64,000 bases of DNA, from the NCBI GenBank assembly GCA_015060685.1, contig SUXZ01000009.1:1-64000 (forward strand), in the 5' to 3' direction. This document shows, piece by piece, positions 1 through 64,000 of this stretch. The position numbers and the translations under genes are program-made. The notes beneath the pieces are model-generated. The model worked only from the letters and a program-made list of their open reading frames with translations, was not told the origin of the DNA and made no database searches. Origin of the DNA: Mediterranea massiliensis. GTDB taxonomy: Bacteria > Bacteroidota > Bacteroidia > Bacteroidales > Bacteroidaceae. Within the stretch, counting starts at the first letter, position 1, and each line of letters opens with the position of its first letter.

Positions 1-626
1 TTTTACAGATATCCAACTTACTAATACTACTGTGGTAATAAACGTCCACAATCTCCAGGCGGAGAGAATTGCTAATTGAGTTGCGCATAACTTTTTTGAG
101 TTGTGTCAACTTATTTAGTACACTACATTCATTCGATGGAACAGATAGTTAGCTATGTTTTGAGGAGAAGCCAAATGCGAGTGTGACATTAAAAACCTTA
201 ATGTCACACGAATGTCACGCCTAATGTCACACTTTTATTTAACATTTCGATTGCTGATAATCAATAACATAACCGTATAATTTAACACTTGTGTGACATT
301 GTGACATTAGAAAAATAAACTCTAGAGTGTGCGCGCACGCGCGCGATAGAGAGAGAAATACTCGCCTTCAAAATTGCACGTAATTGTTTCTAAAATATAA
401 ATTTATTATTCCTTTAGAAGCATAGATTACCGCATTGAGGAGCAAATAGGTAGCGAAACAATCAATTATTATTTTGATAACCTCCAATATTCCAAATGAA
501 TAGCCACTATTTCGGGTAGCAAAAAGGTAGCAAAAACAATTCCAACCCTTACTCTGGAGTATCGAAACGGGTGTCATTATAGTACCCAGAATCCAGAGGG
601 AATATTGGTAAAAAGTTGATTACTAA
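1..626. other. Non-coding left flank of the susC cassette
   Basis: No convincing gene is seen in these 626 bases. The stretch is AT-rich and holds a cluster of GTGACATT repeats (181-308), an alternating CG/purine tract around 325-358, and a small dyad AGTTG-TGT-CAACT near 105-117. A 69-codon frame on the minus strand (368-577) has no recognisable signal, domain or promoter and is treated as chance. No Bacteroides-type promoter or ribosome binding site is evident just before the SusC frame, which suits a silent cassette. Confidence 0.6.
181..308. repeat. Cluster of GTGACATT repeats with a 12-bp dyad
   Basis: The octamer GTGACATT or its complement occurs at 183-190, 200-207, 211-218, 223-230, 293-300 and 301-308. 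The first two copies form a perfect 12-bp inverted repeat (181-192 with 198-209, 5-base loop). Copies in the middle are 11-12 bp apart, about one helical turn. The arrangement resembles iterons or a multi-site operator. What it serves is unknown because the gene to the left lies outside the window. Confidence 0.7.
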
Positions 627-680
627 TTTTATACTGGAATACCGAGTTCGGCGAAGACTATTGTCATTTCATACATTGGT

Positions 681-3641
681 ATGCAGACTGTAGAAGTTGC
701 CATCAAGGAGAACATCAAGGTTTACATGAAGTCTGATACTGAGATGCTCGACGAAGTAATGGTAGTAGCTTATGGTACTGCCAAGAAATCGGCATTTACA
801 GGTTCGGCATCAGTGGTAAAGGGTGAAGAGTTGGAAAAACGTCAGGTATCTAACTTGACCAACGCTTTGTCTGGTACCGTATCAGGTGTTCAAACTACAA
901 GCTCTAACGGTCAGCCGGGTACATCTTCAACTGTACGCATCCGCGGTATCGGTTCTATGTACGCAAGCAACACTCCGTTGTATGTAGTAGATGGTATGCC
1001 TTTCGAAGGTGACATATCTTCTATCAATACACAAGATATCGAGTCTATGACCGTATTGAAAGACGCTGCCGCAGCTGCTTTGTATGGTGCTCGTGGTGCT
1101 AACGGTGTTATCTTGGTTACTACCAAGAAAGGTAAGACCGGTGAAACTACTATCACTGCAGAAGCTCGTTGGGGTGTTAACAGCCGCATGATTAAGAACT
1201 ACGATGTATTGGAACGTCCTGACACTTACATGGAGAACCTTTACACCGCTTTATATAACGGTTACTACTACAACACCGGCTATAGCGCAGAACAAGCTCA
1301 CCAAACCGCAAACTCTAAGTTAAATGCTTCAGGTAAAAGTTCAGCATTGGGTTATCAAATTTATACTGTACCTGCCGATCAATACCTCATTGGTCGCAAC
1401 GGCCGTTTGAACCCTAACGCTACTTTGGGTTATAGCGATGGCGATTTCTTCTATACTCCAGATAACTGGGCTGACAACTCATTCTCTAACGAAATGCGTC
1501 AAGAGTACAACATCAGCGCACGTGGCGGTACAGAAAAGATGAACTACTATATTTCTGCCGGTTATTTGACTGATAACGGTGTGATTGCCAACTCTGGTTT
1601 CGACCGTATCTCTACCCGTTTGAACGTTGACTACCAAGTAAAAGAATGGTTGAAGATTGGTTCTAACATCGGTTACACCAACTCTACAAGCCGCTATCCT
1701 GGTGAGCAAACTTCTACCAACTCTTCAATGAATGCATTCTACATCGCCAACATGATTGCTCCTATCTATCCGATGTTCGTTCGCGATGCAGCAGGCAACA
1801 TCATGCGCGATGCCAACACTAACCGTCCGGTTTACGACTACGGCGATGGCTATAGCACAAACAACACTCGTAACTTCATGTCTATCTCGAACCCTGCCAG
1901 CGACTTGGCTTACAACACAACAGAGTACCTGATGGACATCCTCGATGCCAAGTGGTTTGCTAACGTTGACATTTTCGACGGTCTTTCATTCAAGGCCTCT
2001 CTTGGTTTGCACATCGACAACACCCGCTACCACGATGTTGGTAACAAGTACTACGGTCAAAGTGCTAACTACGGTGGTTCGGTTACTCAAGACTACACTC
2101 GCAGCTTTGTATTGGAGCAACAATACTTGTTGAACTACAAGAAGGAGTTCGGCAAGCACAACATCGATGCTTTGGTAGGTTACGAAAGCATGGAATACAA
2201 CTCTGAAAACGTTTATGCATATGGTTATAATATGTATAGCGACACTAACTGGACAGTTGGTAACGTTATCGACAAGATCAACGGTTCTGGTTCATACGGT
2301 GAAATTGCCCGCGTAGGTATCCTTTCACGCGTAAGCTACGACTTCGATACCAAGTATTATGTTAGTGCATCTTATCGTCGCGATGCTTCTTCTCGTTTCC
2401 ACCCAGACAACCGTTGGGGTGACTTCTTCTCGTTCAGTGCTGCTTGGGACATTGCCAAGGAAAACTTCATGAGCGATGCAGAATGGGTGAACATGTTGAA
2501 GCTGAAGGCATCTTATGGTGAACAAGGTAACGACGGTATCGGTAACAACTATGCTTACATCGACCAATACCAAGTAACCGGTACTGATGGTGTATTTGCC
2601 GATGGTACTTTGGTTTACAAAGGTAACAAGGACATCACTTGGGAAACTTCTAAGGCAATCAACGTAGGTGTTGACTTCTCATTGTTCCAAGGTAAGGTTG
2701 GCGGTACTGTAGAATACTTCAGCCGTCAGACTTCAGACATGCTTTACTACAAGCCAATGGCTCCGTCTAACGGTTACACTGAATTCCCAATGAACATCGG
2801 TTCTATGCGTAACTCTGGTTTGGAAGTTGAATTGAACTTTACTCCTATCGAAACCAACGACGTAAAATGGACAATCAACGCCAACGCAACTTTCTTGAAG
2901 AACGAAATCGTTGAATTGCACCCCGACCTCGAAGGCGAAATGATTAGCGGTAGCCAAATCTATCGCGAAGGCGAATCAATCTACCAATTCTATATGGTAG
3001 AATATGCCGGCGTTGACCCTGAAACAGGTTTGGCTCAATACTGGGCTGCCGATGTTGATAAGAACGGCGATGCAATCCCTGGTACTGAATTCAAGACTGA
3101 CGACTGGTCTAAGGCTTACAACACTAACCGCAAGGGTACTGGCGACATCATGGCCGACGTATATGGTGGTATCAGCACAACTGTTGACTTCTACGGATTC
3201 GACTTCACTATCCAATGCGCTTACCAATTAGGCGGTAAGATGTTTGATAGCGGTTACCAACAATTGATGCACGGTGGTTCTTCAAGTGCAGCCGGTAGAA
3301 ACTGGCATACAGACATCTTGAACGCTTGGACTCCCGAAAATCAATACACAGATGTTCCTCGTTTGGATGCTATCGACTCATACACAAGCTCAACATCTAC
3401 ACGCTTTATCACAAGCTCAGACTACTTCTCAATCAACAACATCACTTTGGGCTACACATTGCCTAAGCGTTGGACAAGAGTATTGGGCGTAGAAAGCTTG
3501 CGACTCTATGGTGCTGCCGACAATGTAGCATTGTTCTCTGCACGTAAGGGCTTCGACCCACGCATGAGCTACACATCAGCTACATCATCTACTTACTCAG
3601 CATTGCGTACCATCTCTGGTGGTGTGAAGTTGACATTCTAA
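681..3641 (+). CDS. SusC/RagA-family TonB-dependent transporter, 5'-truncated
   Basis: Outer-membrane beta-barrel importer for oligosaccharides, powered through TonB and paired with a SusD lid. The 986 residues contain a TonB box (LDEVMVVAYG, about residues 23-32), a plug domain with the conserved VRIRG and YVVDGMP segments (about 35-150), and a long beta-barrel ending in a terminal Phe (KLTF). Signal peptide and most of the N-terminal carboxypeptidase-regulatory-like domain are absent. The same frame is open upstream only to a stop at 624-626, and residues encoded at about 642-680 (SSAKTIVISYIGM) are the end of that missing domain, so family homology starts before the first Met without any start codon or ribosome site. 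The gene therefore looks like a promoterless 3' portion, as in silent partners of invertible susC systems in Bacteroides. A simple deletion is the alternative. susD follows 34 bp downstream. Confidence 0.9.
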   Translation: MQTVEVAIKENIKVYMKSDTEMLDEVMVVAYGTAKKSAFTGSASVVKGEELEKRQVSNLTNALSGTVSGVQTTSSNGQPGTSSTVRIRGIGSMYASNTPLYVVDGMPFEGDISSINTQDIESMTVLKDAAAAALYGARGANGVILVTTKKGKTGETTITAEARWGVNSRMIKNYDVLERPDTYMENLYTALYNGYYYNTGYSAEQAHQTANSKLNASGKSSALGYQIYTVPADQYLIGRNGRLNPNATLGYSDGDFFYTPDNWADNSFSNEMRQEYNISARGGTEKMNYYISAGYLTDNGVIANSGFDRISTRLNVDYQVKEWLKIGSNIGYTNSTSRYPGEQTSTNSSMNAFYIANMIAPIYPMFVRDAAGNIMRDANTNRPVYDYGDGYSTNNTRNFMSISNPASDLAYNTTEYLMDILDAKWFANVDIFDGLSFKASLGLHIDNTRYHDVGNKYYGQSANYGGSVTQDYTRSFVLEQQYLLNYKKEFGKHNIDALVGYESMEYNSENVYAYGYNMYSDTNWTVGNVIDKINGSGSYGEIARVGILSRVSYDFDTKYYVSASYRRDASSRFHPDNRWGDFFSFSAAWDIAKENFMSDAEWVNMLKLKASYGEQGNDGIGNNYAYIDQYQVTGTDGVFADGTLVYKGNKDITWETSKAINVGVDFSLFQGKVGGTVEYFSRQTSDMLYYKPMAPSNGYTEFPMNIGSMRNSGLEVELNFTPIETNDVKWTINANATFLKNEIVELHPDLEGEMISGSQIYREGESIYQFYMVEYAGVDPETGLAQYWAADVDKNGDAIPGTEFKTDDWSKAYNTNRKGTGDIMADVYGGISTTVDFYGFDFTIQCAYQLGGKMFDSGYQQLMHGGSSSAAGRNWHTDILNAWTPENQYTDVPRLDAIDSYTSSTSTRFITSSDYFSINNITLGYTLPKRWTRVLGVESLRLYGAADNVALFSARKGFDPRMSYTSATSSTYSALRTISGGVKLTF

Positions 3642-3675
3642 ATCCATGTTCAATAGACTAAAAAGAAAAAACAAT

Positions 3676-5274: not shown

Positions 5275-5301
5275 TGTTTAACCCTAAGAAAAAGTAACAT
5301 A

Positions 5302-7344: not shown

Positions 7345-7373
7345 TCAACGTACACATTGATAGACCTATAAAT

Positions 7374-7411
7374 AAAGGCTCGCGGAATAAACCGCGGGCC
7401 TTTATTATTTT
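7374..7411 (+). terminator. Rho-independent terminator of the susCD operon
   Basis: Arms AAAGGCTCGCGG and CCGCGGGCCTTT (12 pairs with one G-T) enclose a 6-base loop and are followed by TATTATTTT. It closes the three-gene operon 30 bp after its last stop. Confidence 0.9.
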
Positions 7412-7450
7412 AGGGATTATTTGCTTTAACACCTAAGGCGCAGATAGGTC

Positions 7451-12683: not shown

Positions 12684-14123
12684 ATGAAAAAGATTTTATT
12701 CTTTATCTTGTCGCTATCGTTCGTTATAGCACAAGCGCAAACAGCAAGAAAATTTACAATTAATCTAACTGAAGATGGCAAGGCGCATATGGTTTGCTTC
12801 TTACCTGAAAAGCCATCGGGCAAAGCCATTGTGGGAGTACCCGGAGGCGGCTACTCTATGTTGTCTAACACACACGAAGGGTATCAAGCATCCGAATGGC
12901 TGAACGAGCGAGGCATCTCGTACTTTGTTGTGAACTACCGCCTACCCAATGGTGACCGCACCATCCCTATGGGCGACGTACAAAAGGGTATCAGCATTGT
13001 GCGCGACTCGGCTGCCGTATGGAACATTCATCCACGCGACGTGGGTATCATGGGCTTCTCGGCCGGCGGACACTTGGCATCTGTCATCTCTACTCACTCT
13101 GAATATGAGGTGCGTCCCGACTTCAGCATTCTGTTCTATCCCGTTATCTCGATGGACGAACGCGTATCGCACAAGTATTCGTGCATCAATTTCTTGGGAG
13201 AAGACCAGAAGAATCCGGAAATGGTACGCCAATTCTCTACACAAAATGCGGTGAAACGCCACTTGACTCCTCCTGCACTTATCATCACGGCCAGCGACGA
13301 CCGCCTTGTGCCGTTCGTAACCAACGGATTGGAATACTACAAAGCCATGCGCAATGCAGGCAACGAATGTACCATGCACGTTTATCCTACGGGCGACCAC
13401 GGCTTCGGCTTCGGCAAATGGTTTAAATATCACGACCAATTGCTGACCGACATCGGTACTTGGTTAGATGCTCATCCGGCACCGGCTCAAGATGCAATCC
13501 GCGTGGCTTGCGTGGGCAATAGCATCACCGACGGACATGGCATAGACATGGCTACACAACATGGTTATCCGGCCTTGTTGCAACAAAGACTTGGCAACAA
13601 ATATTGGGTAAAGAACTTCGGTGTTAGCGGACGCACCATGCTGAACAAAGGCGACTATGCCTATACAAACGAAATGGCTTGGCGCGATGCGGTGGCCTTC
13701 CAACCCGATATTGTAATCATCAAATTAGGAACAAACGACTCGAAACCACAGAATTGGGAATATGGTACCGAGTTCAAGCAAGACTTGGTGCAGATGATTA
13801 CCACCTTCTGCCCTGAACTGAAGACATTGCCTAAGAACAAGAAGAAGAGAGCCAAAGCATTGGCCGAAGTGAAGACAAAAATCATCCTCTGCACCCCTAT
13901 CCCGGCTTTCAAACAATCGTGGGACATTAACGAAACAATCATCGCCAACGAGATTATCCCTATCCAACAAGAAGTGGCAAGCGAGTATGGCTTGCAAGTA
14001 ATCGACCTACACACGCTCTTTGCCAACGACAAAGCCCTACTCTTCCCCGACGGCATTCACCCCAACGACAAGGGTGTACGCAAAATGGCGGATATCATTG
14101 CAAAGGCATTGAAGGGAGAATAA
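12684..14123 (+). CDS. Two-domain carbohydrate esterase (alpha/beta-hydrolase plus SGNH)
   Basis: 479-residue secreted protein with a cleavable signal peptide (cut near AQA-QT, residue 19). Domain 1 (about 30-262) is an alpha/beta-hydrolase of the acetylxylan-esterase/BD-FAE type: oxyanion motif VPGGGYSML, nucleophile Ser126 in GFSAGG, Asp206 in ASDDRLVP and His239 in GDHGFG. Domain 2 (about 271-478) is an SGNH/GDSL esterase: Ser280 in GNSITDG, GTND at 349-352, Asp456 and His459 in DGIHPND. Both triads appear intact, so the enzyme can probably remove acetyl groups from two positions or substrates. The start at 12684 gives the signal peptide; frame upstream overlaps the radical SAM gene. It lies 22 kb from the GH5 gene, so membership in the xyloglucan locus is only suggested. 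Confidence 0.88.
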   Translation: MKKILFFILSLSFVIAQAQTARKFTINLTEDGKAHMVCFLPEKPSGKAIVGVPGGGYSMLSNTHEGYQASEWLNERGISYFVVNYRLPNGDRTIPMGDVQKGISIVRDSAAVWNIHPRDVGIMGFSAGGHLASVISTHSEYEVRPDFSILFYPVISMDERVSHKYSCINFLGEDQKNPEMVRQFSTQNAVKRHLTPPALIITASDDRLVPFVTNGLEYYKAMRNAGNECTMHVYPTGDHGFGFGKWFKYHDQLLTDIGTWLDAHPAPAQDAIRVACVGNSITDGHGIDMATQHGYPALLQQRLGNKYWVKNFGVSGRTMLNKGDYAYTNEMAWRDAVAFQPDIVIIKLGTNDSKPQNWEYGTEFKQDLVQMITTFCPELKTLPKNKKKRAKALAEVKTKIILCTPIPAFKQSWDINETIIANEIIPIQQEVASEYGLQVIDLHTLFANDKALLFPDGIHPNDKGVRKMADIIAKALKGE

Positions 14124-14160: not shown

Positions 14161-14196
14161 CTACCCCCTCTCAGAATACCTTCTGGAAGGGGGTAG
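14161..14196. terminator. Long hairpin between convergent genes
   Basis: CTACCCCCT (14161-14169) pairs with AGGGGGTAG (14188-14196), and CAGAA/TTCTG pairs inside around a TACC loop, giving a nearly continuous 16-bp stem with one mismatch. It lies between convergent genes and may stop transcription or block readthrough, but no T-run follows on either strand. Confidence 0.5.
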
Positions 14197-14198: not shown

Positions 14199-14263
14199 TC
14201 ATATAGTCACTGAGGCCACCTCATATAGTCACTGAGGCTACCTCATATAGTCACTGACCATGG
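14199..14263. repeat. Tandem 22-bp repeat, three units
   Basis: Units start at 14199, 14221 and 14243. The first two differ at one base and the third shares its first 15 bases (TCATATAGTCACTGA) before diverging. No coding role. The period equals that of other intergenic arrays in this window. Confidence 0.9.
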
Positions 14264-14318
14264 CTCAATGGCACACTCATCTTCGAGAGATGAAGAATGA
14301 AGTAGAAAACGTAAAGAA

Positions 14319-19437: not shown

Positions 19438-19587
19438 AATACTAAATTTTTCCCTATCGGGAGGGTTGTTATAAAGATTAAAGGACAAAATTAGCAAGAA
19501 TAATCCAAACATCCTATCGTTTATGCCATAATTCATACTTTCGCCGGCCATTTTCCGTTATCCAACACACCCCGAAGAAAAATTTAC

Positions 19588-19640
19588 CCTTAAGGGAAAA
19601 TTTATTTTCTGTTAAGGGTAAATATAAAAAGGCTATAGGG
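19588..19640. repeat. Bipartite TTAAGGG array with 22-bp period
   Basis: TTAAGGG starts at 19590 and 19612 and a degenerate TATAGGG at 19634, each 22 bp apart. The first is part of the palindrome CCCTTAAGGG. It lies in the divergent region between the GH31 gene and the CPBP operon. The same element with identical spacing occurs at 38047/38069 and 61106/61128. Confidence 0.8.
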
Positions 19641-19666
19641 AGAGATTTCCCTCTTTGAATAGAAAT

Positions 19667-19683
19667 TTATCGTTTTTCGATAA
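19667..19683. promoter_or_regulatory. Upstream operator-like palindrome of the CPBP operon
   Basis: TTATCGTTTTTCGATAA is a 6-5-6 palindrome 16 bp before the -33 box. A near-identical inverted copy follows the -7 box at 19733. Confidence 0.75.
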
Positions 19684-19699
19684 TTTTTTCTCGTTTTTC

Positions 19700-19730
19700 T
19701 TTGGTAGTATCAAAATAGTGCTTACCTTTG
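19700..19730 (+). promoter_or_regulatory. Promoter of the CPBP-DUF2975-XRE operon
   Basis: TTTG (19700-19703), 19-bp spacer and TACCTTTG (19723-19730) match the Bacteroides sigma factor consensus closely. The leader to the ATG at 19788 is about 50 nt. Confidence 0.8.
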
Positions 19731-19732
19731 CA

Positions 19733-19748
19733 TATCGAAAAACGATAA
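19733..19748. promoter_or_regulatory. Downstream operator-like palindrome of the CPBP operon
   Basis: TATCGAAAAACGATAA is the reverse complement of the site at 19667 apart from one end base, and starts 2 bp after the -7 box, where a bound repressor would block initiation. Confidence 0.75.
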
Positions 19749-19787
19749 ATAAACATTGAAAAACAAAAATAAATAAACTCTTAAACA

Positions 19788-38022: not shown

Positions 38023-38075
38023 CCTTAATCGAATAAAAAATTACCCTTAAGGGAAAATAAATTTAGAGTTAAGGG
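38023..38075. repeat. TTAAGGG array with 22-bp period upstream of umuD
   Basis: CCTTAA at 38023, CCCTTAAGGG with TTAAGGG at 38047, and TTAAGGG at 38069; each step is 22 bp. It reaches the -33 region of the umuD promoter, so it could act as an operator. Confidence 0.8.
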
Positions 38076-38085
38076 AAAGTTACAC

Positions 38086-43526: not shown

Positions 43527-43659
43527 TTCTTATCTGTTTCTTTATAAAATCGAGCGCAAATATAGGCAATTAACTGCCATTAGCGAACCAAAAAACAGAA
43601 AAAACATCATTCAACGAAACTTTTTGGCTAATATCCACCATTTTACGTGAATATTTATG

Positions 43660-43667
43660 TATCTTTG
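43660..43667 (+). promoter_or_regulatory. -7 promoter element of pnp
   Basis: TATCTTTG, 38 bp before the pnp ATG. Confidence 0.65.
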
Positions 43668-43705
43668 CCCGATTTTTAGAAGATTTTTTTTGAAATATAT
43701 TTTTT

Positions 43706-45919
43706 ATGATTAACCCTATTGTTAAGACAATCGAGCTTGCTGATGGCAGAACCATCACGCTCGAAACGGGAAAGTTGGCAAAACAGGCAGATGGTTCTGT
43801 AATGCTGCGCATGGGCAACACCATGCTGTTGGCTACTGTTTGTGCCGCCAAGGATGCAGTTCCCGGAACAGATTTTATGCCGCTACAGGTAGAGTACAGA
43901 GAAAAGTTTTCGGCTTTCGGCCGTTTCCCAGGTGGTTTCACCAAACGCGAAGGTCGCCCATCAGACAACGAAATCCTGACTTGTCGTCTTGTTGACCGTG
44001 CTCTACGCCCCCTCTTCCCAGACGATTTCCATGCTGAAGTTTATGTAAACATCATCCTATATTCTGCTGATGGTGTTGATATGCCGGATGCATTGGCCGG
44101 TTTGGCAGCTTCTGCCGCATTGGCCGTTTCAGACATCCCATTCAACGGGCCTATCTCTGAAGTACGCGTTGCACGCATCAACGGCGAATTCGTTATCAAC
44201 CCCACTTTCGACCAACTGGAACAAGCCGACATGGACCTGATGGTAGGTGCTACCTACGAAAACATCATGATGGTGGAAGGCGAAATGAAGGAAGTTTCAG
44301 AACAAGACTTGCTCGAAGCTTTGAAAGCTGCTCACGAAGCCATCAAGCCGATGTGTAAGGCTCAGTTGGAATTGGCCGAAGAGGTTGGTTCTACCGTTAA
44401 GCGCGAATATTGCCACGAAGAGAACGACGAAGAGTTGCGCAAGGCCGTTCGCGAAGCCTGCTACGACAAAGCTTATGCCATTGCCCAAAGCGGCAACTGC
44501 AACAAGCACGAACGCGGCGAGGCTTTCGAAGCCATCCGCGAAGAGTTCAAGGCTCAATTCAGCGAAGAAGAGTTGGAAGAAAAGGCTGCGCTTATCGACC
44601 GCTACTACCACGATGTAGAAAAAGAGGCTATGCGTCGTTGCATCTTGGACGAAGGCAAGCGTTTGGATGGTCGCAAGACTACCGACATCCGCCCCATCTG
44701 GTGCGAAGTCAGCCCGCTGCCAGGACCTCACGGTTCGGCTATCTTTACTCGTGGCGAAACACAATCGTTGTCAACCGCTACATTGGGCACCAAGCTCGAC
44801 GAAAAGATTGTAGACGATGTATTGGTACACGGAAAAGAACGTTTCTTGTTGCACTATAACTTCCCTCCATTCTCTACAGGCGAAGCCAAGGCTCAACGCA
44901 GCGTAGGCCGTCGTGAAATTGGTCACGGACACTTGGCTTGGCGTGCATTGAAGGGACAGATTCCTGCAGACTATCCTTATGTAGTTCGTGTCGTATCAGA
45001 CATCCTCGAATCAAACGGTTCATCTTCAATGGCTACCGTTTGTGCCGGCACATTGGCTATGATGGATGCCGGTATCAAGATTGCCAAGCCGGTATCAGGC
45101 ATCGCTATGGGATTGATTAAGAACGCAGGCGAAGACAAATTTGCCGTGCTTTCAGACATCTTGGGCGACGAAGACCACTTGGGCGATATGGACTTCAAGG
45201 TAACCGGAACTAAGGACGGTATCACCGCTACTCAAATGGATATCAAGGTAGATGGTTTGTCATACGACATCCTTGAAAAGGCCTTGATGCAAGCTAAAGC
45301 CGGTCGCGAACACATCCTCGGCAAGATTACCGAGTGCATGGCCGAACCTCGCGAAGACCTCAAGCCACATGCTCCACGCATCGAAATGATGACTATTCCT
45401 AAGGAATTCATCGGTGCAGTGATTGGTCCTGGCGGTAAGATCATCCAAGGTATGCAAGAAGAGACCGGTGCTACTATCACTATCGAAGAGATCGACAACA
45501 TTGGCCGCATCGAAATTTCGGGTACTTGCAAGCAAAGCATCGACGATGCCATCCGCTTGATCAAGGCTATCGTAGCCGTTCCCGAGGTAGGCGAAGTATA
45601 TAAAGGTAAGGTACGCAGCATCATGCCTTATGGTGCATTCGTAGAATTCTTGCCTGGCAAGGATGGCTTGCTCCACATCTCTGAAATCGATTGGAAGCGT
45701 TTGGAAACTGTCGAAGAGGCAGGCATCAAGGAAGGCGACGAACTTGAGATCAAGTTGCTCGACATCGATCCTAAGACCGGCAAGTTCAAGCTCTCTCGCA
45801 AGGTATTGCTTCCCAAGCCGGAAGGTTATGTAGAACGTGAACGCCCTGAACGTCGCGAACGTCCTCATAACAACAACCGTGGCGAACGTCCTTACCGCGA
45901 ACCTCGCAACGATCAATAA
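43706..45919 (+). CDS. pnp: Polynucleotide phosphorylase
   Basis: 3'-5' phosphorolytic exoribonuclease, 737 residues. Two RNase PH domains (about 10-145 with [19 protein letters not shown]; 325-540 with RTDIRP-like [18 protein letters not shown] and [17 protein letters not shown]), a helical linker, a KH domain ([17 protein letters not shown], about 560-620) and an S1 domain ([20 protein letters not shown], about 630-700). The tail is Arg/Glu-rich ([16 protein letters not shown]). Central to mRNA decay. Monocistronic, followed by a strong terminator. Confidence 0.98.
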
Positions 45920-45943
45920 TCCGAAACGATTATATTACCTATT

Positions 45944-45977
45944 AATAAGGTGTGCAAATTGCACACCTTATTTTTTT
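45944..45977 (+). terminator. Terminator of pnp
   Basis: AATAAGGTGTGC and GCACACCTTATT form a perfect 12-bp stem (loop AAATT) followed by TTTTT. Confidence 0.95.
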
Positions 45978-46661
45978 GTTTCGTAAGAGCAACGTCACAT
46001 TTTGACAAAATGTCAATTTTGACACTTTGCATTTTCAACCGCACGAGAATCGTCTGTTTCGAAGCCAAGTAAAGGATGATTCGAAAAATCGAAGCGGTCA
46101 GTCGTTAAGCTACTTAATAGTAAGCGGTTATCGAAATCATTACAAAAATTCTACGCTGAAATATGTAGAATATTCTTACTTTTCAAGACATCTTTCGAAG
46201 TTTTTGCGGCAAGCCCTAAACTTTTCCTCCGGAATCACGCGAGGTTAACGCCGTAGATACGGCAGTTAGCGCCGTGACTACGCGGAATTGTTCCGCTAAG
46301 CGCCGAGGTCCCGGCGCAAATCCAGCGTGATTCCGGCGCTAACCTCGCGTGATTTCAGCAGCAATGTTTTTCACTCCTTTCAAAACGGCCGATTTTACAA
46401 AAATGTGCGTTAGCAAAACTCCAAGATTTCGAGCATATTGTCAGTATAACACAAGATTTGATGACACTTCGAGCTTTATAATACGATAGGGACGCGTCTG
46501 AAAAACAGGAAGAAAATCTATGCCCGACTTTGAAATAAGCATAATCTTCCACAAAAAAAACAGCATTCTCCAAAAGGCATATACTTGTACCCTCATATTT
46601 CACAGTTTTTTCGTACCTTTGTATAGATACATAAATAATAAATACAATCAGTTTTTGAACT
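45978..46661. other. Gene-free gap with palindromic DNA
   Basis: About 680 bp without a supported gene. It contains a dyad TTGACA-AAA-TGTCAA (46002-46016), the GC-rich palindromic array at 46231-46360, and AT-rich DNA before the next gene. An 82-codon minus-strand frame (46355-46603) has no domain or ribosome site and is not accepted. Confidence 0.6.
46231..46360. repeat. GC-rich array of degenerate 22-bp palindromic units
   Basis: About six units of 21-22 bp, several with a small dyad of different sequence: ACGGC...GCCGT, GCGGAATTGTTCCGC, GCGCCG...CGGCGC, AGCG...CGCT. The outer ends also form a long inverted repeat (21-base arms at 46233-46253 and 46334-46354, one mismatch). GC content stands far above the flanks. 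The RNA could fold into a multibranched structure. Confidence 0.75.
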
Positions 46662-55528: not shown

Positions 55529-55558
55529 TTGTCTTATAGTTACACCTTTATTTATTTG

Positions 55559-56189: not shown

Positions 56190-56277
56190 TCGTTTCTGAA
56201 CAACAAACAGTTCAGACGTGAAGAACAAATACATCAGACGTAAACAACAAATAGTTCAGAAAAGGCAAACGAACTTC
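56190..56277. repeat. Degenerate 22-bp tandem array
   Basis: Units start at 56190, 56212, 56234 and 56256. Units two and three share TCAGACGT and AACAAATA; unit one shares GAACAACAAA; unit four keeps only TCAGAAA. It lies upstream of the secreted cluster in a 550-bp gap without genes. Confidence 0.75.
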
Positions 56278-56290
56278 ATCTTTTCACGAA

Positions 56291-56356
56291 TATAGCTTCG
56301 TGAGCTCACAGATATAGCTTCGTGGGCCCGCAGATATAGCTTCGCAGCCTCGCAAA
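56291..56356. repeat. 22-bp tandem array with changing palindromes
   Basis: Three units start at 56291, 56313 and 56335, each opening TATAGCTTCG. Following it are GTGAGCTCAC, GTGGGCCCGC and GCAGCCTCGC: between units one and two A-to-G is matched by T-to-C on the other arm, so pairing is kept. Confidence 0.85.
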
Positions 56357-56471: not shown

Positions 56472-56540
56472 GATATTTTTTCCTCGTGAGGAAAAAAAAC
56501 GAGGGTCGTGAGGGAGATATTTTTTCCCCGTGAGAAAAAA
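56472..56540. repeat. 22-bp palindromic units, T/A-rich
   Basis: TTTTTTCCTC-GT-GAGGAAAAAA (56476-56497) is a perfect 22-bp palindrome; a related unit TTTTTTCCCCGTGAG with an A-run begins 44 bp later (56520). GATATT precedes each. Adjacent to the ribF terminator. Confidence 0.8.
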
Positions 56541-56576
56541 AACACCCCATCCAGACGGTGTTCTGGATGGGGTGTT
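56534..56576 (-). terminator. Terminator of ribF
   Basis: AACACCCCATCCAGA and TCTGGATGGGGTGTT (15-bp perfect arms) around CGGTGT; on the minus strand eight T follow. Confidence 0.93.
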
Positions 56577-56624
56577 AAAAGGAATGTTATTGTATGATTA
56601 TTTCGTCGCCATCAACAAAGAAAG

Positions 56625-57515: not shown

Positions 57516-57524
57516 TTCTACTTG

Positions 57525-57569
57525 ACTACTTAACTACTCACTACTTAACTACTCACTACTTGACTACTC
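57525..57569. repeat. 15-bp tandem repeat, three units
   Basis: ACTACTTAACTACTC repeats exactly twice and a third time with one change (TTGA for TTAA), between ribF and the HAD gene, ending at the HAD stop codon. Strand slippage could vary the copy number. Confidence 0.92.
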
Positions 57570-58186
57570 TATTCTTTAAACAAATGGCTCCAATCTTCGT
57601 GAGCCTTGGGTGTATAGGTGGCAATGCCCAACTGGTTGGCCACGCGACAATTCTCGGGCGAGTCGTCGATGAAGAGCGTTTCACCGAACGAAAGCGGTGC
57701 TTGCGCCGATACCATTCGGAAGATGTCCGGATTGGGTTTGGCAAGTTTCATCTCGTAGGAGAGGAAGATGCGGTCGAAGAAGTCTTCCACCTTGTGTCCG
57801 TTGTAGGTAAACACATGCTTGCACGACCACTCCCAATGGATGTCGTTGGTGTTGCTCAGCAGATATACCTTATATTGTTTGCGCAAGGCCAACAGGAGGT
57901 CGAGCTTATAGGTAGGAATCGTGCCAAGAAAACTGTTCCACGCCTCGTCTATCTGTTCGTCGCTCAGCGGCTTGCCGGCCACCTGACGGATGAATTGGCG
58001 AAAGCCGGCGGCATCAATCTCTCCCCTTTCGTGCAAAGAGAAGAAGCCTTGTTGGTGACACACATCCAAGAGGTGGGACACATCGGTCAATCCCAAGCGT
58101 TGGAAATTGTCCAAGCAACGCTGGCGGTCGAGGTCGATGAGCACGCCACCAAAGTCTATCAAAAGGTTCTTTATCTGCTTATCCAT
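57569..58186 (-). CDS. HAD-family phosphatase (YihX-like)
   Basis: 205 residues. Motif I is LLIDFGGVLIDLD (Asp9; the second Asp is replaced by GV-LID as in YihX/epoxide-hydrolase-N-like HADs), motif II YLLSNTND, motif III Lys in EMKLAKPNPDIF and motif IV LFIDDSPENC. YihX relatives release glucose from alpha-glucose-1-phosphate; substrate here is inferred. 4 bp after the calcium ATPase gene, so co-transcribed. Confidence 0.88.
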   Translation of the reverse strand: MDKQIKNLLIDFGGVLIDLDRQRCLDNFQRLGLTDVSHLLDVCHQQGFFSLHERGEIDAAGFRQFIRQVAGKPLSDEQIDEAWNSFLGTIPTYKLDLLLALRKQYKVYLLSNTNDIHWEWSCKHVFTYNGHKVEDFFDRIFLSYEMKLAKPNPDIFRMVSAQAPLSFGETLFIDDSPENCRVANQLGIATYTPKAHEDWSHLFKE

Positions 58187-58190
58187 CGTT

Positions 58191-60842
58191 TTATTGTTTC
58201 AGTCGTTTAATCCATCGCACCACTTCGCCTACCCACAACACCAACGAAGTGGAGAGGATAATCCACATCCACTCTTGGAGGCTGAGCGGCTCGGTGCGGA
58301 ACACCTCGCCACCAAACTGGACGATGAGGAATTGGCCCAACAAGATGGCCAACACCACCACCTCCATGCCGTAGGTTTTAGTGATATTTTTGAATGCCGA
58401 GTCGTTGGTGCCAAAGACACGGGCATTGAATAGGTTCCAAAACTGAAGCATCACGAAGAAGGTGAAGAAGATGGTGAGGCGATGCACGGTCAGTCCGCCG
58501 GGCAGATGTTCGAAGGCAATCAGCATGCCCATCAGCACGCAAGCAAACAGGATGCCTACACCAAATATCATCCATCCCATAGTGGGGGTAATGATGAAGT
58601 CGCTACTTTTGCGCGGCTTGGCTTGCATCACGCTTTCGCTTGGAGGTATAGAGGCCAGTGCTAATGCGGCAAAGGTATCCATAATGAGGTTCACCCATAG
58701 CATTTGGGTGACGGTGAGCGGCAACTCGGTGCCCACCAACGAGCCGAGCAACACAATAAAGAGGGCCACGAAGTTGATGGTGAGTTGGAAGAGGATGAAG
58801 CGTTGGATGTTCTTGTACAACGAGCGTCCCCACATTACGGCCGTAGCGATGCTTTTGAACGAGTCGTCGAGCAGGGTAATGTCGCTTGCCTCTTTTGCCA
58901 CCGACGTACCACTACCCATGGAGAGGCCCACTTGTGCATGGTTCAAGGCCGGGGCATCGTTGGTGCCGTCGCCCGTAACCGCCACAACGGCTCCTTTCTG
59001 CTGAAGCAGTTGCACTAAGCGTTGCTTGTCGGTAGGGCGTGCACGCGACATAATCTTCAAATCCATTACACGATTCAAAGCTTCATCGTCGGTCAGGTTG
59101 GCAAACTCGGTGCCGGTGATGCGGTTGCGGTCGGTATCCGCCTCTGTCCACAACCCTATCTGGCGGGCTATCTCGGTGGCGGTGCCGGGCGTATCGCCGG
59201 TAACAATCTTCACGCCGATACCGGCATCCCGGCATCGACGGATAGCCGGCGGCACATCTTCGCGCACGGGGTCGCTGATGGCTACCACACCGATAAAGGT
59301 CATATCGTTGACTTGCGAAACGCAATCTTTCTCCGTATCATCTACTATCTTATAGGCAAAGCCCAAGGTGCGCATGGCCTTTGTCTGATAGCCCAAGAGC
59401 TGGTTGTCCACCATCTGTTTTTGCTTGGCGGCATCGCAGAGGCCTTCGGGCAACCATACCTGGCTACACTTGCCATAGACAATCTCGGGCGCACCCTTTA
59501 CAAACAGGATGTGCTTGCCGGGCATGGCCGCCTTAACCAATGTGGCCATGTACTTGCGCTCGGTAGAGAAGGTGAGCTGGTCGATGACGACAGATGACTC
59601 GCGCAACTTCAGGTAATCGATGCCTTTGGCATGCAACCATAGCAATAGGGCCACCTCGGTGGGATTGCCCACTCCCTTTGGCTTTGCTACGCCGTTGTTT
59701 TCTTCCAAAAAGGCAGTAGAGTTAACTGCTATTCCCTGATAAATGAGTTGCTTCAATTCGTTGTTTCCTTCCAAGGCATAGAAGGATGCCTCGCTCACCT
59801 GCATTTGGTTTTGTGTCAAGGTGCCGGTCTTATCGGTACAGATAACGGTAATGGCACCCATCGTTTCGCAAGCATGCATCTTGCGCACCAAGTTGTTGGT
59901 GACAAGCATGCGGCGCATGTTCAATGCCAAGCTAAGGGTGACGCTCATGGGCAAGCCTTCGGGCACGGCCACTACAATCAAGGTAACGGCCATCATGAAG
60001 TATTGAAGGGTGGCCTTCAAAGCGGGCAACCAATCGGCAAAGGTTGTAAAGGTGGAGAAGGGATAGTGCAACAGCACATCCTTGACAAAGAAGATGGCAA
60101 ATGCCATGCCGGCTACAGAGAAGCCAATCTTGCTGATGAGGTTGGCCAGCTTGTCGAGCTGAATGTTCAAGGGGGTTGGTTCGAATGTCTGTTCGGTGCT
60201 TTGACGCGCCACCTTACCTATTTCGGTGGCATCGCCCACACTATCGACACACATCTTGGCACGTCCATCTACCACTGTAGTGCCGCGCATCAAGCGATTG
60301 CTGGGGTAGGTAGCATCCGGGTGGAAGTGGGCTTTGTCGGTTGTCTTACTGATGACCGGCTCGCCCGTCAGGTTCGACTCGTTCACTTGCAACGAGACGG
60401 CCTCTATCAGGTTGCCGTCGGCAGGTACCTCGTCGCCCGTTTCCAGCATGACGATATCGCCCACTACAACATCTTTTCGGGGCACCTCCTGCACACGTCC
60501 GTTGCGCAACACCTTTACGGGTGTCTCTTCGTTGACGCTATTCAGCAGGTCGAACTTCTTATTGGCATCATACTCAAAATAGAAGCCGATGCCGGTGGCC
60601 AACAAGATGGCCAGGATGATGCCGATGGTTTCGGCATACTCGTTCTCGAAAATCGAAATCAGCAACGAGAAGCAGGCGGCTACCAACAACACGCGAACAA
60701 CCGGATCTTCGAACTTTTCCAGATAGAGTTTCCACAAAGAGGGCCGCTTTGGGGGAGTAAGCAGGTTGTTGCCATATTTGCTACGGCTCGCCCGAACCTC
60801 CTCCTCGGTCAATCCTAAGTGTTGATTAGTAAATTCAGTCAT
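58191..60842 (-). CDS. Calcium-translocating P-type ATPase (PMCA type)
   Basis: 883-residue inner-membrane pump. Actuator motif NLTGEPV, phosphorylation motif CTDKTGTLTQ (Asp near 334), MVTGD-like KIVTGDTPGTA, hinge VTGDGTNDAPALNHAQVG, and ten predicted helices including VAVPEGLPMSVTLSLALNMRRML (M4 ion site). N-terminal cation-ATPase domain present. Exports calcium, coupled to ATP hydrolysis. First gene of the ATPase-HAD-(ribF) run, divergent from rubredoxin; a minus-strand -7 box TATTTTTG lies at 60878-60871. Confidence 0.94.
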   Translation of the reverse strand: MTEFTNQHLGLTEEEVRASRSKYGNNLLTPPKRPSLWKLYLEKFEDPVVRVLLVAACFSLLISIFENEYAETIGIILAILLATGIGFYFEYDANKKFDLLNSVNEETPVKVLRNGRVQEVPRKDVVVGDIVMLETGDEVPADGNLIEAVSLQVNESNLTGEPVISKTTDKAHFHPDATYPSNRLMRGTTVVDGRAKMCVDSVGDATEIGKVARQSTEQTFEPTPLNIQLDKLANLISKIGFSVAGMAFAIFFVKDVLLHYPFSTFTTFADWLPALKATLQYFMMAVTLIVVAVPEGLPMSVTLSLALNMRRMLVTNNLVRKMHACETMGAITVICTDKTGTLTQNQMQVSEASFYALEGNNELKQLIYQGIAVNSTAFLEENNGVAKPKGVGNPTEVALLLWLHAKGIDYLKLRESSVVIDQLTFSTERKYMATLVKAAMPGKHILFVKGAPEIVYGKCSQVWLPEGLCDAAKQKQMVDNQLLGYQTKAMRTLGFAYKIVDDTEKDCVSQVNDMTFIGVVAISDPVREDVPPAIRRCRDAGIGVKIVTGDTPGTATEIARQIGLWTEADTDRNRITGTEFANLTDDEALNRVMDLKIMSRARPTDKQRLVQLLQQKGAVVAVTGDGTNDAPALNHAQVGLSMGSGTSVAKEASDITLLDDSFKSIATAVMWGRSLYKNIQRFILFQLTINFVALFIVLLGSLVGTELPLTVTQMLWVNLIMDTFAALALASIPPSESVMQAKPRKSSDFIITPTMGWMIFGVGILFACVLMGMLIAFEHLPGGLTVHRLTIFFTFFVMLQFWNLFNARVFGTNDSAFKNITKTYGMEVVVLAILLGQFLIVQFGGEVFRTEPLSLQEWMWIILSTSLVLWVGEVVRWIKRLKQ

Positions 60843-60893
60843 ATCAGTTTAGTGTTTATGAAATTTGTTGCAAAAATAAGATAAAATATCGGG

Positions 60894-60927
60894 TATAACG
60901 AACTTATTTCCATCTTTGTTCGTTATA
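60894..60927. promoter_or_regulatory. Inverted repeat between ATPase and rubredoxin genes
   Basis: TATAACGAAC and GTTCGTTATA, perfect 10-bp arms around 14 bases, midway between divergent genes. A candidate operator; overlaps the presumed rubredoxin promoter. Confidence 0.6.
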
Positions 60928-60955
60928 AAGTGGAAACAACTAAATAGTTATGCGT

Positions 60956-61120
60956 ATGAAAAAGTATATTTGCGATGTTTGCAGCTATGTTTACGACCCC
61001 GAAGTGGGCGACCCCGACAACGGCATCAAGCCCGGTACACCCTTTAACGAAATTCCCGACGATTGGGTTTGTCCCATCTGCGGTGTAGGGAAAGAAGATT
61101 TTTCCTTAAGGGAAAATTAA
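60956..61120 (+). CDS. Rubredoxin
   Basis: 54-residue one-iron electron carrier: [19 protein letters not shown] with the first CxxC pair and [13 protein letters not shown] with the second, plus the conserved aromatic residues and FNEIPDDW. It transfers single electrons, in anaerobes often to rubrerythrin or oxygen-reducing enzymes. The Met at 60956 fits rubredoxins; a Met six bases earlier (60950) is the alternative. Its last codons (SLREN) lie inside a copy of the TTAAGGG array, so the repeat forms the end of the gene. Confidence 0.96.
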
Positions 61121-61142
61121 TTTAGCCTTAAGGGAAAATTTA
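61104..61142. repeat. TTAAGGG array overlapping the rubredoxin stop
   Basis: TTAAGGG at 61106 and 61128, 22 bp apart, each followed by AAAAT. Same element and spacing as upstream of umuD and of the CPBP operon. A degenerate TGTAGGG sits 22 bp before the first. Confidence 0.8.
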
Positions 61143-61172
61143 AAAAGGGGTTGGCCGCGGCCAACCCCTTTT
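61143..61172. terminator. Bidirectional terminator, rubredoxin / Na-Pi cotransporter
   Basis: A 30-bp perfect palindrome, AAAA-GGGGTTGGCC-GC-GGCCAACCCC-TTTT, between convergent genes. Confidence 0.93.
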
Positions 61173-61191
61173 GCTTTATCTATGCAGAAGA

Positions 61192-62895
61192 TTAAGCAGA
61201 TTTCTTCTCTTTCATGTCGGTTGTAGCCTCAACCACATTCACTACATAGTCGCCAAGCTTTTCGCATTCGGCAATGATATCCATGTAGTAAACACCCATT
61301 TGATAGTCGTACTCTTTGTTATTGACATCGAGGATGTTCTGGTTCTTGAGCTGGTTGCGGTAGTTGTTGATTTCGTTTTCAAGGTTGAACGACTTGTTCA
61401 CATCCACATCGCGGCTTTCGTGTTCGGCATGGTTGATAACTACAATCATTTGTCGCAACGATTGATCTACCAATGCCATCATGTTGTGGATGCGTTCGTA
61501 TTGCTTTTCAACGAAATCTACGTTTGCTTGACGGCGACGATTGATGGTGCGCGCCAAGTTGTAGCAGCTATCGCCGATACTTTCAATTTCGGTTACTTCG
61601 CGAAGCATGGCACGGATTTCCAACTTACTTTCCGAACTGAGTCGGCCTTCGGATACTTGATTCAAGTAGTTGGCAATCTCAAGCTCCATGTTGTCGCTGA
61701 TGCTTTCGTACTTCTCGATGCGGCTGAAGAGCTTATTGAAGTCCTCTTCCTTCTCGGTATGAAGCAAATCTTTCACCATGCCATACATGCGATAGGTGCG
61801 CTCGGCATAGAGATGGATTTCTTTCTTTGCTTGAAGGATAGAGAGTTCGGCCGTAGAGAGCATACCACCGCTGATGAAGCGCAAGCGATACTCTTCGTCT
61901 TGTTCTTTCGATGGATAGATGGTACATACGGCACGCTCGATGAGCTTAACGAACCAAATCATAATCAGCACGTTGCAGATATTGAATGCGGTATGGAAAG
62001 CAGAAAGTTTAAAGGGGACTGCTACCGAGGTTTCGGTTACACCCATTACGTTTTCTACAAACCATGATACGGCTCCGGTGAAGACGGGGAAGAGGCAGAG
62101 CACCCATATTACACCAAACACGTTGAACACCAAGTGAGCCATGGCCGCACGTTTGGCTTGTGTATTGGCGGTTAATGCCGCTAAGTTCGCGGTAATGGTA
62201 GTACCAATATTTTCGCCAAGTACCAACGCAGCACCCAGTTCAAAGCTAATCCAACCATTGGCACACATAATCAAGGTGATAGCCATAGTTGCCGCTGATG
62301 CTTGCACAATCATGGTGAGCACCGTACCAATCAACACGAATATCAAGATTGAGACAAATCCCATATCGGCCCAGTTTTGAACAAACTGTAACATGTCGGG
62401 GTTTTGTTGCAAGTCGGGCGCATTGGCTTTCAAGTTTTGAAGGCCCATGAAAAGGAACGAGAAGCCAAAGATAAATTCACCTAACGATTTGCGATTGCTT
62501 TTTGAAGAGAATAACAAAGGTAAACCAAAGAAAAGCAAAGGTATTGCAAAAGCTGCAATATCAACTTTAAATCCCAATGCCGAGATAATCCAAGCGGTTA
62601 CGGTGGTACCAATGTTGGCACCCATAATTACACCAATGGATTGAGCCAACTCCAATAATCCTGCATTAACAAAGCTGACCACCATTACGGTAGTAGCCGA
62701 AGAGGATTGGATAAGTGCTGTAATCAGCATACCGGTAATAACACCCATTACACGATTGGTGGTCATAGCGGTTAAAATACGTCGAAGCCTGTCTCCGGCA
62801 AACTTTTGGAGGCCTTCACTCATTATCTTCATTCCGTATAGAAACAGAGCTAACGAGCCAAGCAATTTTAAAAAATCATAAAAAGAATAATCCAT
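61192..62895 (-). CDS. Na/Pi cotransporter family protein with PhoU-like tail
   Basis: 567 residues. The N-terminal two thirds have about eight membrane helices with two inverted Na/Pi-cotransporter repeats (ALIQSSSATTVMVVSFVNAG and GTVLTMIVQASAATMAITL; the QSSSAT/QASAAT motifs are the transport signatures). Residues about 345-560 are a helical PhoU-like cytosolic domain. Imports phosphate with sodium. The short C-terminal TTDMKEKKSA ends it. Divergent from the uridine kinase-like gene. Confidence 0.93.
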   Translation of the reverse strand: MDYSFYDFLKLLGSLALFLYGMKIMSEGLQKFAGDRLRRILTAMTTNRVMGVITGMLITALIQSSSATTVMVVSFVNAGLLELAQSIGVIMGANIGTTVTAWIISALGFKVDIAAFAIPLLFFGLPLLFSSKSNRKSLGEFIFGFSFLFMGLQNLKANAPDLQQNPDMLQFVQNWADMGFVSILIFVLIGTVLTMIVQASAATMAITLIMCANGWISFELGAALVLGENIGTTITANLAALTANTQAKRAAMAHLVFNVFGVIWVLCLFPVFTGAVSWFVENVMGVTETSVAVPFKLSAFHTAFNICNVLIMIWFVKLIERAVCTIYPSKEQDEEYRLRFISGGMLSTAELSILQAKKEIHLYAERTYRMYGMVKDLLHTEKEEDFNKLFSRIEKYESISDNMELEIANYLNQVSEGRLSSESKLEIRAMLREVTEIESIGDSCYNLARTINRRRQANVDFVEKQYERIHNMMALVDQSLRQMIVVINHAEHESRDVDVNKSFNLENEINNYRNQLKNQNILDVNNKEYDYQMGVYYMDIIAECEKLGDYVVNVVEATTDMKEKKSA

Positions 62896-62989
62896 CTTTC
62901 ACTTATTTGTTTATTTTATGTTTTATTTGAAAGAAATGCACTATCTTCACATTCGAAATAAAATAATACGAACTAAAGATTTTTAATAC

Positions 62990-64000
62990 ATGTTACAAAT
63001 TCGTTGCAAAAATAATAATATTTCCCAAACATTCCCTATCGGAAGCACACTTTTAGAGATTTATCAGGCATTAAATTTAAATTTGCCCCATCAGTTGGTC
63101 AGTGCAAGGGTAAACAACTGCTCGGAAGGGCTCACATACCGCGTCTATCACAACAAGGATGTGGAGTTTTTGGACATTACCCACCCATCGGCTCGCCGCA
63201 CCTATGCCCGAAGCCTATGTTTTGTGCTCTATAAAGCCATCACCGAACTATTCCCCAACGGCAAATTAAATGTGGAACACTCGGTATCCAACGGATATTA
63301 TTGCAGCCTCAACATCGGCCGTCCCATCGAGTTGACCGATGTGCAGAACCTGAAGAAACGGATGCAGGAGATTATAGCCGAAGACCTCCCCTTCCGCCGT
63401 AAAGAGTGCCTGACCACCGAAGCTGTTCCGCACTTCCACGGAGTGGGTTTGGTGGACAAGGCGAAGCTACTCGAAAGCACCGGCTCGCTTTACACCTACT
63501 ACTACATGTTGGGCGATACTTCCGACTACTACTACGGATGCCTGCTTCCCAGCACCGGCTATCTATACCTGTTCGACTTGGTGAAATACTACGACGGCCT
63601 GCTGTTGCGCCTTCCCGACAAGAACAATCCCGACCAACTGGGCGAAATCGTGAAGCAAGAGAAGATGTTCGAAGTATTTAAGGAACACCTGAATTGGAAC
63701 AACATCTTAGGATGTGCCAACGTGGGCGATGTAAACCAGATATGCCAAAGCGGAAACGCCGGCATGCTTATCAAGGTGGCCGAGGCGTTGCAAGAGAAGA
63801 AAATTGCACAGATAGCCGAAGAGATTTACCGCCGAGGTGCCGAAGAGGGCAAACCCGTCAAGCTGGTGCTCATCTCAGGCCCATCCTCATCGGGCAAAAC
63901 CACCTTCAGCAAGCGGTTGAGCATCCAACTGATGACCAACGGCATCCGTCCCTACCCCATTGCATTAGACAACTACTTCGTGAACCGCAAGGATACACCG
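62990..64000 (+). CDS. Uridine kinase-like nucleoside kinase, N-terminal part (cut by window end)
   Basis: 337 codons are seen without a stop. Residues 1-280 form a TGS-like/threonyl-tRNA synthetase-like N-terminal region (TFPIGSTLLEIYQAL, VEHSVSNGYYCSL, FHGVGLVDKAKLLESTGS); the kinase domain starts near 290 with Walker A SGPSSSGKTTFSKRL and DNYFVNR. The full family is about 550 residues, so roughly 40% is missing. Phosphorylates uridine or another nucleoside. The N-terminal domain may bind an effector. Confidence 0.9.
   Translation, partial: MLQIRCKNNNISQTFPIGSTLLEIYQALNLNLPHQLVSARVNNCSEGLTYRVYHNKDVEFLDITHPSARRTYARSLCFVLYKAITELFPNGKLNVEHSVSNGYYCSLNIGRPIELTDVQNLKKRMQEIIAEDLPFRRKECLTTEAVPHFHGVGLVDKAKLLESTGSLYTYYYMLGDTSDYYYGCLLPSTGYLYLFDLVKYYDGLLLRLPDKNNPDQLGEIVKQEKMFEVFKEHLNWNNILGCANVGDVNQICQSGNAGMLIKVAEALQEKKIAQIAEEIYRRGAEEGKPVKLVLISGPSSSGKTTFSKRLSIQLMTNGIRPYPIALDNYFVNRKDTP

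Follow-up and report, generated by a model that had tools for sequence, protein, structure and literature searches.

Tandem arrays of unrelated sequence with a common 22-bp period in the intergenic DNA of Mediterranea massiliensis and other Bacteroidales

BrickBuilt, a miniature inverted-repeat transposable element (MITE) of Porphyromonas gingivalis, is an intergenic element in which tandem 23-nt units are flanked by a conserved leader and tail. It has 19 copies in strain ATCC 33277, unit numbers from 1 to 22.8, terminal repeats resembling those of the insertion sequence (IS) IS5, and homologues in P. gulae; 41-, 23- and 22-nt tandem repeats in P. gingivalis W83 are cited in its description as well (PMC4596501). 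BrickBuilt is the described element closest in form to the arrays analysed here, which lie in a stretch of 64,000 nucleotides of Mediterranea massiliensis (contig SUXZ01000009.1, positions 1–64,000; hereafter the window) and repeat at 22 bp with sequences that mostly differ from array to array. No description of such a sequence-free 22-bp class in Bacteroidales was found in the open-access literature, subscription papers lying outside the scope.

The source genome comprises 2.60 Mb in 31 contigs and is 98.8% complete. Loci and DNA stretches are labelled L and genomes G, the window's genome is called the own genome, and G037 is a relative. The own-genome sample covered 769 kb (30% of the genome), made up of the window and L097–L134; about half of one batch of these stretches lay on contigs already known to carry copies of array families A or B (described below), and the other batch consisted mostly of blind picks. 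Genes were called with a custom open reading frame script, leaving 286 intergenic regions of 62 kb. Exact 7-mer self-matches were counted by lag in this intergenic DNA, in Markov shuffles and in a coding sample, and arrays were detected with Tandem Repeats Finder (TRF), 20 shuffles serving as controls.

At lag 22 the own intergenic DNA held 314 self-matches against 16.1 ± 6.0 in the shuffles, an excess of about 20-fold, and the density was 5.81/kb compared with 0.04/kb in the coding sample. The excess that the sequence-only reading had anticipated beyond the window was thus borne out over this 30% of the genome. Neighbouring lags were lower (93 at lag 21 and 48 at lag 23), and lag 44 reached 123. 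TRF reported 31 intergenic arrays of period 22 or 44 against 0–1 per shuffle; before merging, 35 of its period-22 rows were intergenic and 4 coding. Counting periods 20–24 and 44, the 769 kb contained 41 arrays. Because both the lag-22 and the TRF counts lie far above the shuffles, a chance origin of the periodicity is excluded. Lags 7–8 and 14–16 were also strongly enriched in the same intergenic sample, an example being CTACTTAA at window 57518–57569 with TRF periods of 7, 8 and 15. Another short repeat region, at window 199–308, carries TAATGTCACAC and TGTGACAT with TRF periods of 11 and 8.

The signal extends over much of the order. In a breadth sample of 80 loci of named Bacteroidales, with the median over lags 25–40 as background, lag 22 was the top lag in Bacteroides (211, median 11.5), Phocaeicola (36, median 3), Mediterranea (46, median 1) and Parabacteroides (73, median 1), the last mainly from one array, since TRF lists a single such array there (L064, where a TGCCA array of Parabacteroides faecis JCM 18682 spans 12740–12890). 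Lag 22 was joint top in Prevotellaceae (20, median 1); it reached 18 in seven unclassified Bacteroidales loci, where another lag was on top, and 2 in three Paraprevotella loci. No lag-22 match occurred in five Tannerellaceae loci, in seven unclassified Bacteroidaceae loci or in 150 kb of Escherichia coli K-12. Four stretches from two genomes of the family f95 gave 55 matches against 1.1 shuffled, a count that is biased because these stretches were chosen to contain TGCCA matches. Sixteen stretches from other families of the order gave 20 against 6.8, and lags 21 and 42 were stronger there; these two lags stem from a few loci (L200:4–332, L204:16513–16653), which may represent coding repeats or a 21-bp counterpart. 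Pooled over the own sample, G037 and the named loci, the merged intergenic arrays numbered 97, with 61 at period 22, 8 at 44, 17 at 21, 4 at 23, 2 at 20, 2 at 24 and 3 at 46.

The sequence-only reading had listed eight places in the window with a 22-bp repeat, and all eight repeat at this spacing when the sequence is read; TRF recovered five (14199, 46311, 56197, 56290 and 61087), and the CCCTTAAGGG pattern accounts for those at 19590 and 38023. The accompanying claim that the sequences differ between arrays stood in part, for there are many unrelated families, but the arrays at 19590, 38023 and 61106 are of one TTAAGGG type, and those at 56190–56277 and 56291–56356 form one composite. The family A array (forward strand, 14199–14265) contains about three units of TCATATAGTCACTGAGGCYACC, with a TRF period of 22 and 97% match, and recurs at 9 places of the own genome at ≤3 mismatches. 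It is preceded, at 14164–14193 of the same strand, by the inverted-repeat module CCCCC-CAGAA...TTCTG-GGGGG, conserved together with the array in four own-genome copies. Further own arrays have the module too; it was also seen at L073:4539, L215:1827 and L228:1827, and in leader-array-tail elements of G025 it occupies array positions; it thus stands beside or within several unrelated 22-bp array families of three genomes.

Family B, built on the CCCTTAAGGG dyad, is represented on the forward strand at 19587–19640, where unit 3 is degenerate and the pattern matches at 19587–19618 with exact 22-bp spacing; at 38025–38078, where unit 1 is degenerate and the match spans 38044–38075; and at 61087–61140, found by TRF, with TTAAGGG at 61106 and 61128. 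The pattern CCCTTAAGGG..TTAAGGG occurs at 9 own-genome places (10 rows, one being the reverse reading of a counted place), 8 at exact 22-bp spacing and 1 at 19; the 61106 array is without the first C of the pattern and falls outside these 9. Window 19665–19770 holds an intergenic block of strong conservation in which palindromes of the ATCGAAAAACGAT type form pairs at a distance of about 21 bp, and blocks of this type stand upstream of small genes in several Bacteroidales genera (L009:5978–6081, L028:14474–14586, L044:14358–14457 and others).

Family C forms a leader-array-tail element on the forward strand. Its leader (45998–46165) has five own-genome copies, its array (46228–46361) holds about six units of period 22 with AATCACGCGTGATT-type dyads (TRF period 22 at 46311–46354; copies L135, L149, L153 and L154), and its tail (46362–46418), similar in the own copies, ends in GCGTTAGCAAAA. 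The remaining arrays, which are unstranded, cluster near 56 kb: family D (TGAACAACAAATAGTTCAGACG, 56197–56260; copies L104, L110 and L097) and family E (ATATAGCTTCGTGAGCTCACAG, 56290–56354), both of period 22 by TRF, and family F (56477–56545), recognised by reading the sequence, with CGTGAG-centred dyads at 56485, 56507 and 56529. The D and E pair has a second copy at L104 with 93.5% identity and no gaps. A terminator-like hairpin directly adjoins the family F array on the side of the gene next to window 56625, which we take to be RibF-like, and TTTCCC..GGGAAA arrays in L103, L111 and L123 resemble the family F array by eye.

For one protein the nearest full-length relatives, including those of Candidatus Bacteroides merdavium, Bacteroides oleiciplenus and Mediterranea massiliensis, stand at 77–78% identity, and a match over part of its length in a metagenome-assembled Bacteroides genome reaches 86%. 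Some stretches share 86–97% identity with G037 (L164:4741–6509 with L111:289–2055; window 43656–46094 with L156:4438–6880), most others being at about 67–82%, as if there had been recent exchange or strong conservation.

Across the sample the unit families are many, unrelated and dispersed, among them TGCCA..TGGCA, CCCTTAAGGG, TTTCCC..GGGAAA, GGAAAC..GTTTCC, TTAC..GTAA and GTTTCA..TGAAAC (one display of the arrays covered 31 of the 97, those with at least 3.0 units). TRF counted about 2–7 units per array, and up to about 10 were seen by eye in G025. Perfect dyad arms of at least 5 bp were present in 29 of 61 consensus units compared with about 11% of permuted units, and arms of at least 6 bp in 14 of 61 compared with 2.8%; the earlier claim that many units contain a dyad therefore holds as an enrichment, but for about half of the units only. 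In 30 arrays with good dyads, most with only two full units, the identity between adjacent units was 0.858 in the arms, 0.733 in the loops and 0.654 in the linkers. The mean difference between arms and rest was 0.165, positive in 20 of 30 arrays (Wilcoxon p=0.0023), and 0.027 in column-permuted controls. Arrays of the form TGCCA-N6-TGGCA-N6 likewise keep fixed arms while both N6 stretches vary. The four-arm TGCCA pattern was found at 20 own-genome places, the 10 listed lying in five arrays, and at 9 and 7 places in the f95 genomes; it was absent from the other 195 of 198 genomes, and a reversed control gave 0 in all. A two-sided arm change was seen in L047.

The arrays also prefer gene 3' ends. 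Leaving out 7 of the 97 that lie at locus ends, their density per kb of intergenic DNA was 0.83 between convergent genes, 0.40 between tandem genes and 0.26 between divergent genes, and 33 of 47 arrays between tandem genes lay nearer the stop of the upstream gene. On the idea that arrays may stand in for terminators, the fraction of convergent gene ends with a predicted terminator was 0.12 where an array is present (n=24) versus 0.26 where there is none (n=132), and for tandem gene ends it was 0.23 (n=35) versus 0.19 (n=439).

One and the same site can carry different arrays. At the site 3' of the RibF-like gene, where the own genome has three arrays, 22-bp arrays were found in five of 29 other loci (L009, L012, L022, L028 and L044), and none was recognised in the rest. 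L009 and L012 share one array with a 22–23 bp period, whereas the array of L022 (B. nordii) is built on CAAGAATGTACATTCTTG, that of L028 on TTACATTAAATGT and that of L044 (Phocaeicola faecalis) on TGTTTCCATTGTTTGCAAAAAC; these types are related neither to one another nor to the own arrays.

The family C element (window 45998–46418), about 450 bp of non-coding DNA, gave a similar picture. By BLAST its leader matched 14 of 99 same-genus genomes, the own one included, and a stricter pattern retained 5 of 95 (own 5 copies, G007 3, G025 13, G064 2 and G079 1). In 8 of the 14 genomes a clear 22-bp array was seen by eye 3' of the leader, mostly of genome-specific sequence, such as AAAACAGTGCCTTTTCCCTCGG in G007, TTAAGACTTTTGGGGCAGAAGT in G025, CGGCAAATGCGTGCAGACGCGC in G072 and CTTGTGTGGTTTGTGCACAGAA in G035; the remaining genomes are unclear in this respect or, as with G037 and L221, show no array after the leader. 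Within G025, ten leader copies are followed by arrays of one type, and L229, L232 and L236 by arrays of a second type. From leader start to tail motif 8 of the ten measure 392–394 bp and 2 measure 372 bp, one unit less, with strongly different array sequences. In 4 of the 5 own copies a GTTAG anchor lies 363–364 bp from the leader anchor; it was not found in L155. Across genomes the element lengths cluster at intervals of roughly 11 bp (R=0.91 for a period of 11.0, the best fit being 10.9). This test drew on 33 loci, 26 with some tail anchor, and used 9 hand-chosen values, one per genome or subfamily, with G072 and G035 dropped as ambiguous and 344 taken from two matches in L143; its P value is optimistic because of shared ancestry and hand choice, and the quantisation of length by 11 bp is no more than suggestive.

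A functionless origin would make the arrays minisatellites or MITE-internal repeats of the BrickBuilt kind, duplicated in 22-bp steps, so that the period is the trace of a generator. The dispersed families with conserved flanks and the leader-array-tail layout agree with this account. The four identical units of L064 show that unit duplication does happen, and differences of one 22-bp unit separate L120 from L125 as well as 2 of the 10 G025 elements from the others. The age profile, however, leans towards maintained spacing. Unit identity in the 69 arrays of period 22 or 44 was ≥98% in none, 93–97% in 3, 86–92% in 11, 78–85% in 39 and 60–77% in 16, so that 66 of 69 are diverged (≤92%). Among intergenic repeats of period ≥16, periods 22 and 44 made up 3 of 11 near-identical repeats (≥93%) versus 66 of 111 among the diverged (Fisher p=0.056), the limit being set there because from period 9 upwards short repeats swamp the near-identical class; none of the 3 repeats at 98–100% identity has period 22.

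Copies of arrays point the same way, most of their alignments showing an unchanged unit number. The alignments were gap-free inside the array in 104 of 133 cases, with one 22-bp gap (L125 versus L120) and most others of 1–4 bp; the set of 133 contains reciprocal rows as well as some arrays with periods of 20–24, promoter-type 21-bp pairs among them, and local BLAST favours gap-free matches. The conserved arms and variable loops between units are likewise at odds with a pure trace of duplication. A past or slow repeat generator is nevertheless possible, because the near-identical sample is small and period 22 is the commonest single period among its 11 repeats. As the whole explanation of the arrays, a generator without function appears somewhat unlikely.

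Another alternative is that the arrays are transcribed and fold into series of hairpins, whether in 3' untranslated regions or in non-coding RNAs, acting in stability, termination or protein binding. The enrichment of dyads and the bias to gene 3' ends are in keeping with such hairpins. For eight G025 elements RNAalifold predicted a stem that encloses the array, and 14 of 67 pairs showed one or more two-sided changes; the covariation term for these elements, +0.05 kcal/mol, gave no support. RNA stems accept G.U mismatches, and DNA sites show no such preference. Array stems oriented by tandem genes had 20 G.U versus 17 A.C mismatches (convergent 9 versus 11, divergent 5 versus 8), and family C arrays, read in the direction of their element, 52 versus 64, whereas terminator-like hairpins in the same sequences had 79 versus 23 (468 versus 325 under a looser definition). 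The family C leader, in a set of related copies, did show an excess, 61 versus 34. Since the array stems are without the G.U excess of the terminators, a DNA-level function is preferred and an RNA-hairpin function of the arrays is disfavoured. Moreover, a fixed 22-nt spacing is not required by RNA hairpins, and Rfam reported only a tRNA in the window; rows of RNA hairpins are accordingly judged unlikely. The FopS small RNA family of B. thetaiotaomicron was set aside as a counterpart: it has a single-stranded 5' end and one terminator hairpin, and the word 'tandem' was not found in the parts of its description at hand (PMC11697453).

The arrays could also be remnants of binding sites from mobile elements or plasmids. 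Transposase-end repeats and iterons have a spacing of about 22 bp and element-specific sequence, and the arrays likewise join a sequence of their own per family to a common spacing, as iterons do. The family C element further has 13 copies in G025 and, close to its ends, inverted motifs. Against such an origin, the own genome had no Y1 transposase by the profile PF01797, a search that took in neither Rep proteins nor transposases of other types, the exact leader and TGCCA patterns were absent from viral contigs, and no target duplication was recognised by eye in the flanks of 10 G025 copies. These flanks carry TGTCAGC/GCTGACA at the head and GTTAGC/GTCAGC at the tail, and no IS5-like GAGACC end was seen in them by eye. 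A mobile-element origin of this sort seems quite improbable. Membership in the class of repetitive extragenic palindromic (REP) sequences with their REP-associated tyrosine transposase (RAYT) was rejected, PF01797 being found in 0 of 1 own genome and in 5 of 14 controls. A clustered regularly interspaced short palindromic repeats (CRISPR) array was also rejected, the whole period being 22 bp and the units alike over most of their length; cas genes were not searched.

We tentatively regard the arrays as DNA-level, operator-like sites for spacing-sensitive dimeric DNA-binding proteins, a candidate role that is possible rather than probable. Dimers would occupy one dyad after another at intervals of two helical turns, which would bring all bound units to the same side of the DNA, a single face on which the proteins could contact each other and bind cooperatively. 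The 22-bp spacing would likely be kept because the proteins would sit side by side on that face. Different array families would then reflect different or fast-changing binding specificities, and selection, not the duplication mechanism, would hold the 22-bp lattice of arrays that spread within dispersed repeat elements. A turn of 11 bp, not 10.5, would suit negatively supercoiled or protein-wrapped DNA. At gene 3' ends the arrays may serve in chromosome packaging, as a barrier between convergent genes or in supercoiling relief, roles in which the bacterial interspersed mosaic elements (BIMEs) of enterobacteria are thought to act; the 3' bias, resembling that of BIMEs, hints at an involvement in supercoiling or in keeping neighbouring transcription units apart. 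A broader proposal, that Bacteroidales share a lineage-wide lattice of nucleoprotein arrays in which specificity is free across arrays and species, geometry is fixed at two turns per unit and elements hold whole-turn lengths, is doubtful.

Several observations weigh against the proposed protein sites. No binding protein was identified, and a clear dyad is absent from about half of the units. The inverted 6-mer spectrum does not peak sharply at 11 bp; an alternation of half-sites at 11-bp intervals is therefore unsupported as a universal rule, and that picture fits some families only. Periods 21 and 23 are present too (17 and 4 against 61). Near-identical repeats are not clearly short of period 22 (3 of 11: L064, L115 and window 14199), and indels are only slightly rarer at period 22/44, where 48 of 66 arrays are indel-free, than at periods 9–19 (43 of 65; 14 of 26 at periods 20, 21, 23, 24, 43, 45 and 46). 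Array copies in one genome are of common descent. The family C leader, with its excess of G.U, could be RNA, and the G037 leader (97% over 115 bp) has no array after it.

The common mechanism that the sequence-only reading had drawn from a fixed period with free sequence thus gains support genome-wide and across genera. Of the two candidates it had offered, a spacing-sensitive protein fits somewhat better, given the 66 of 69 diverged arrays, the 104 of 133 gap-free alignments and the conserved arms; a generator is somewhat less likely. The sequence-only reading had taken an explanation of the arrays as parts of known IS or MITE elements for a refutation; they do belong in part to dispersed MITE- or REP-like families, but that status leaves the 22 unexplained, because unrelated families have the same period. 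Should the spacing have a function, the 41 arrays counted in 30% of the genome would extrapolate to some 140 structured sites between genes in each genome of a dominant gut group, and would lead to DNA-binding proteins with sites recognisable by periodicity instead of sequence. The autocorrelation signal is measurable in any genome and could report the helical repeat of DNA in the cell.

Among known systems, REP sequences and BIMEs share with the arrays an extragenic, palindromic and dispersed character and a preference for 3' or convergent positions, the dyads here being found in about half of the units; they are of a single conserved type and come with a RAYT transposase, whereas the arrays have many unit sequences and the own genome has no Y1 transposase. 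Plasmid iterons are likewise tandem sites about two helical turns apart, with a sequence specific to each replicon, but they stand beside a rep gene at an origin, unlike the dispersed 41 arrays of period 20–24 or 44 in 769 kb. BrickBuilt resembles family C alone, in having a leader, a tandem array and a tail, with hosts of both in Bacteroidales; it has one unit sequence, whereas the arrays described here have many, and the same leader is joined to different arrays between species and between G025 subfamilies (PMC4596501).

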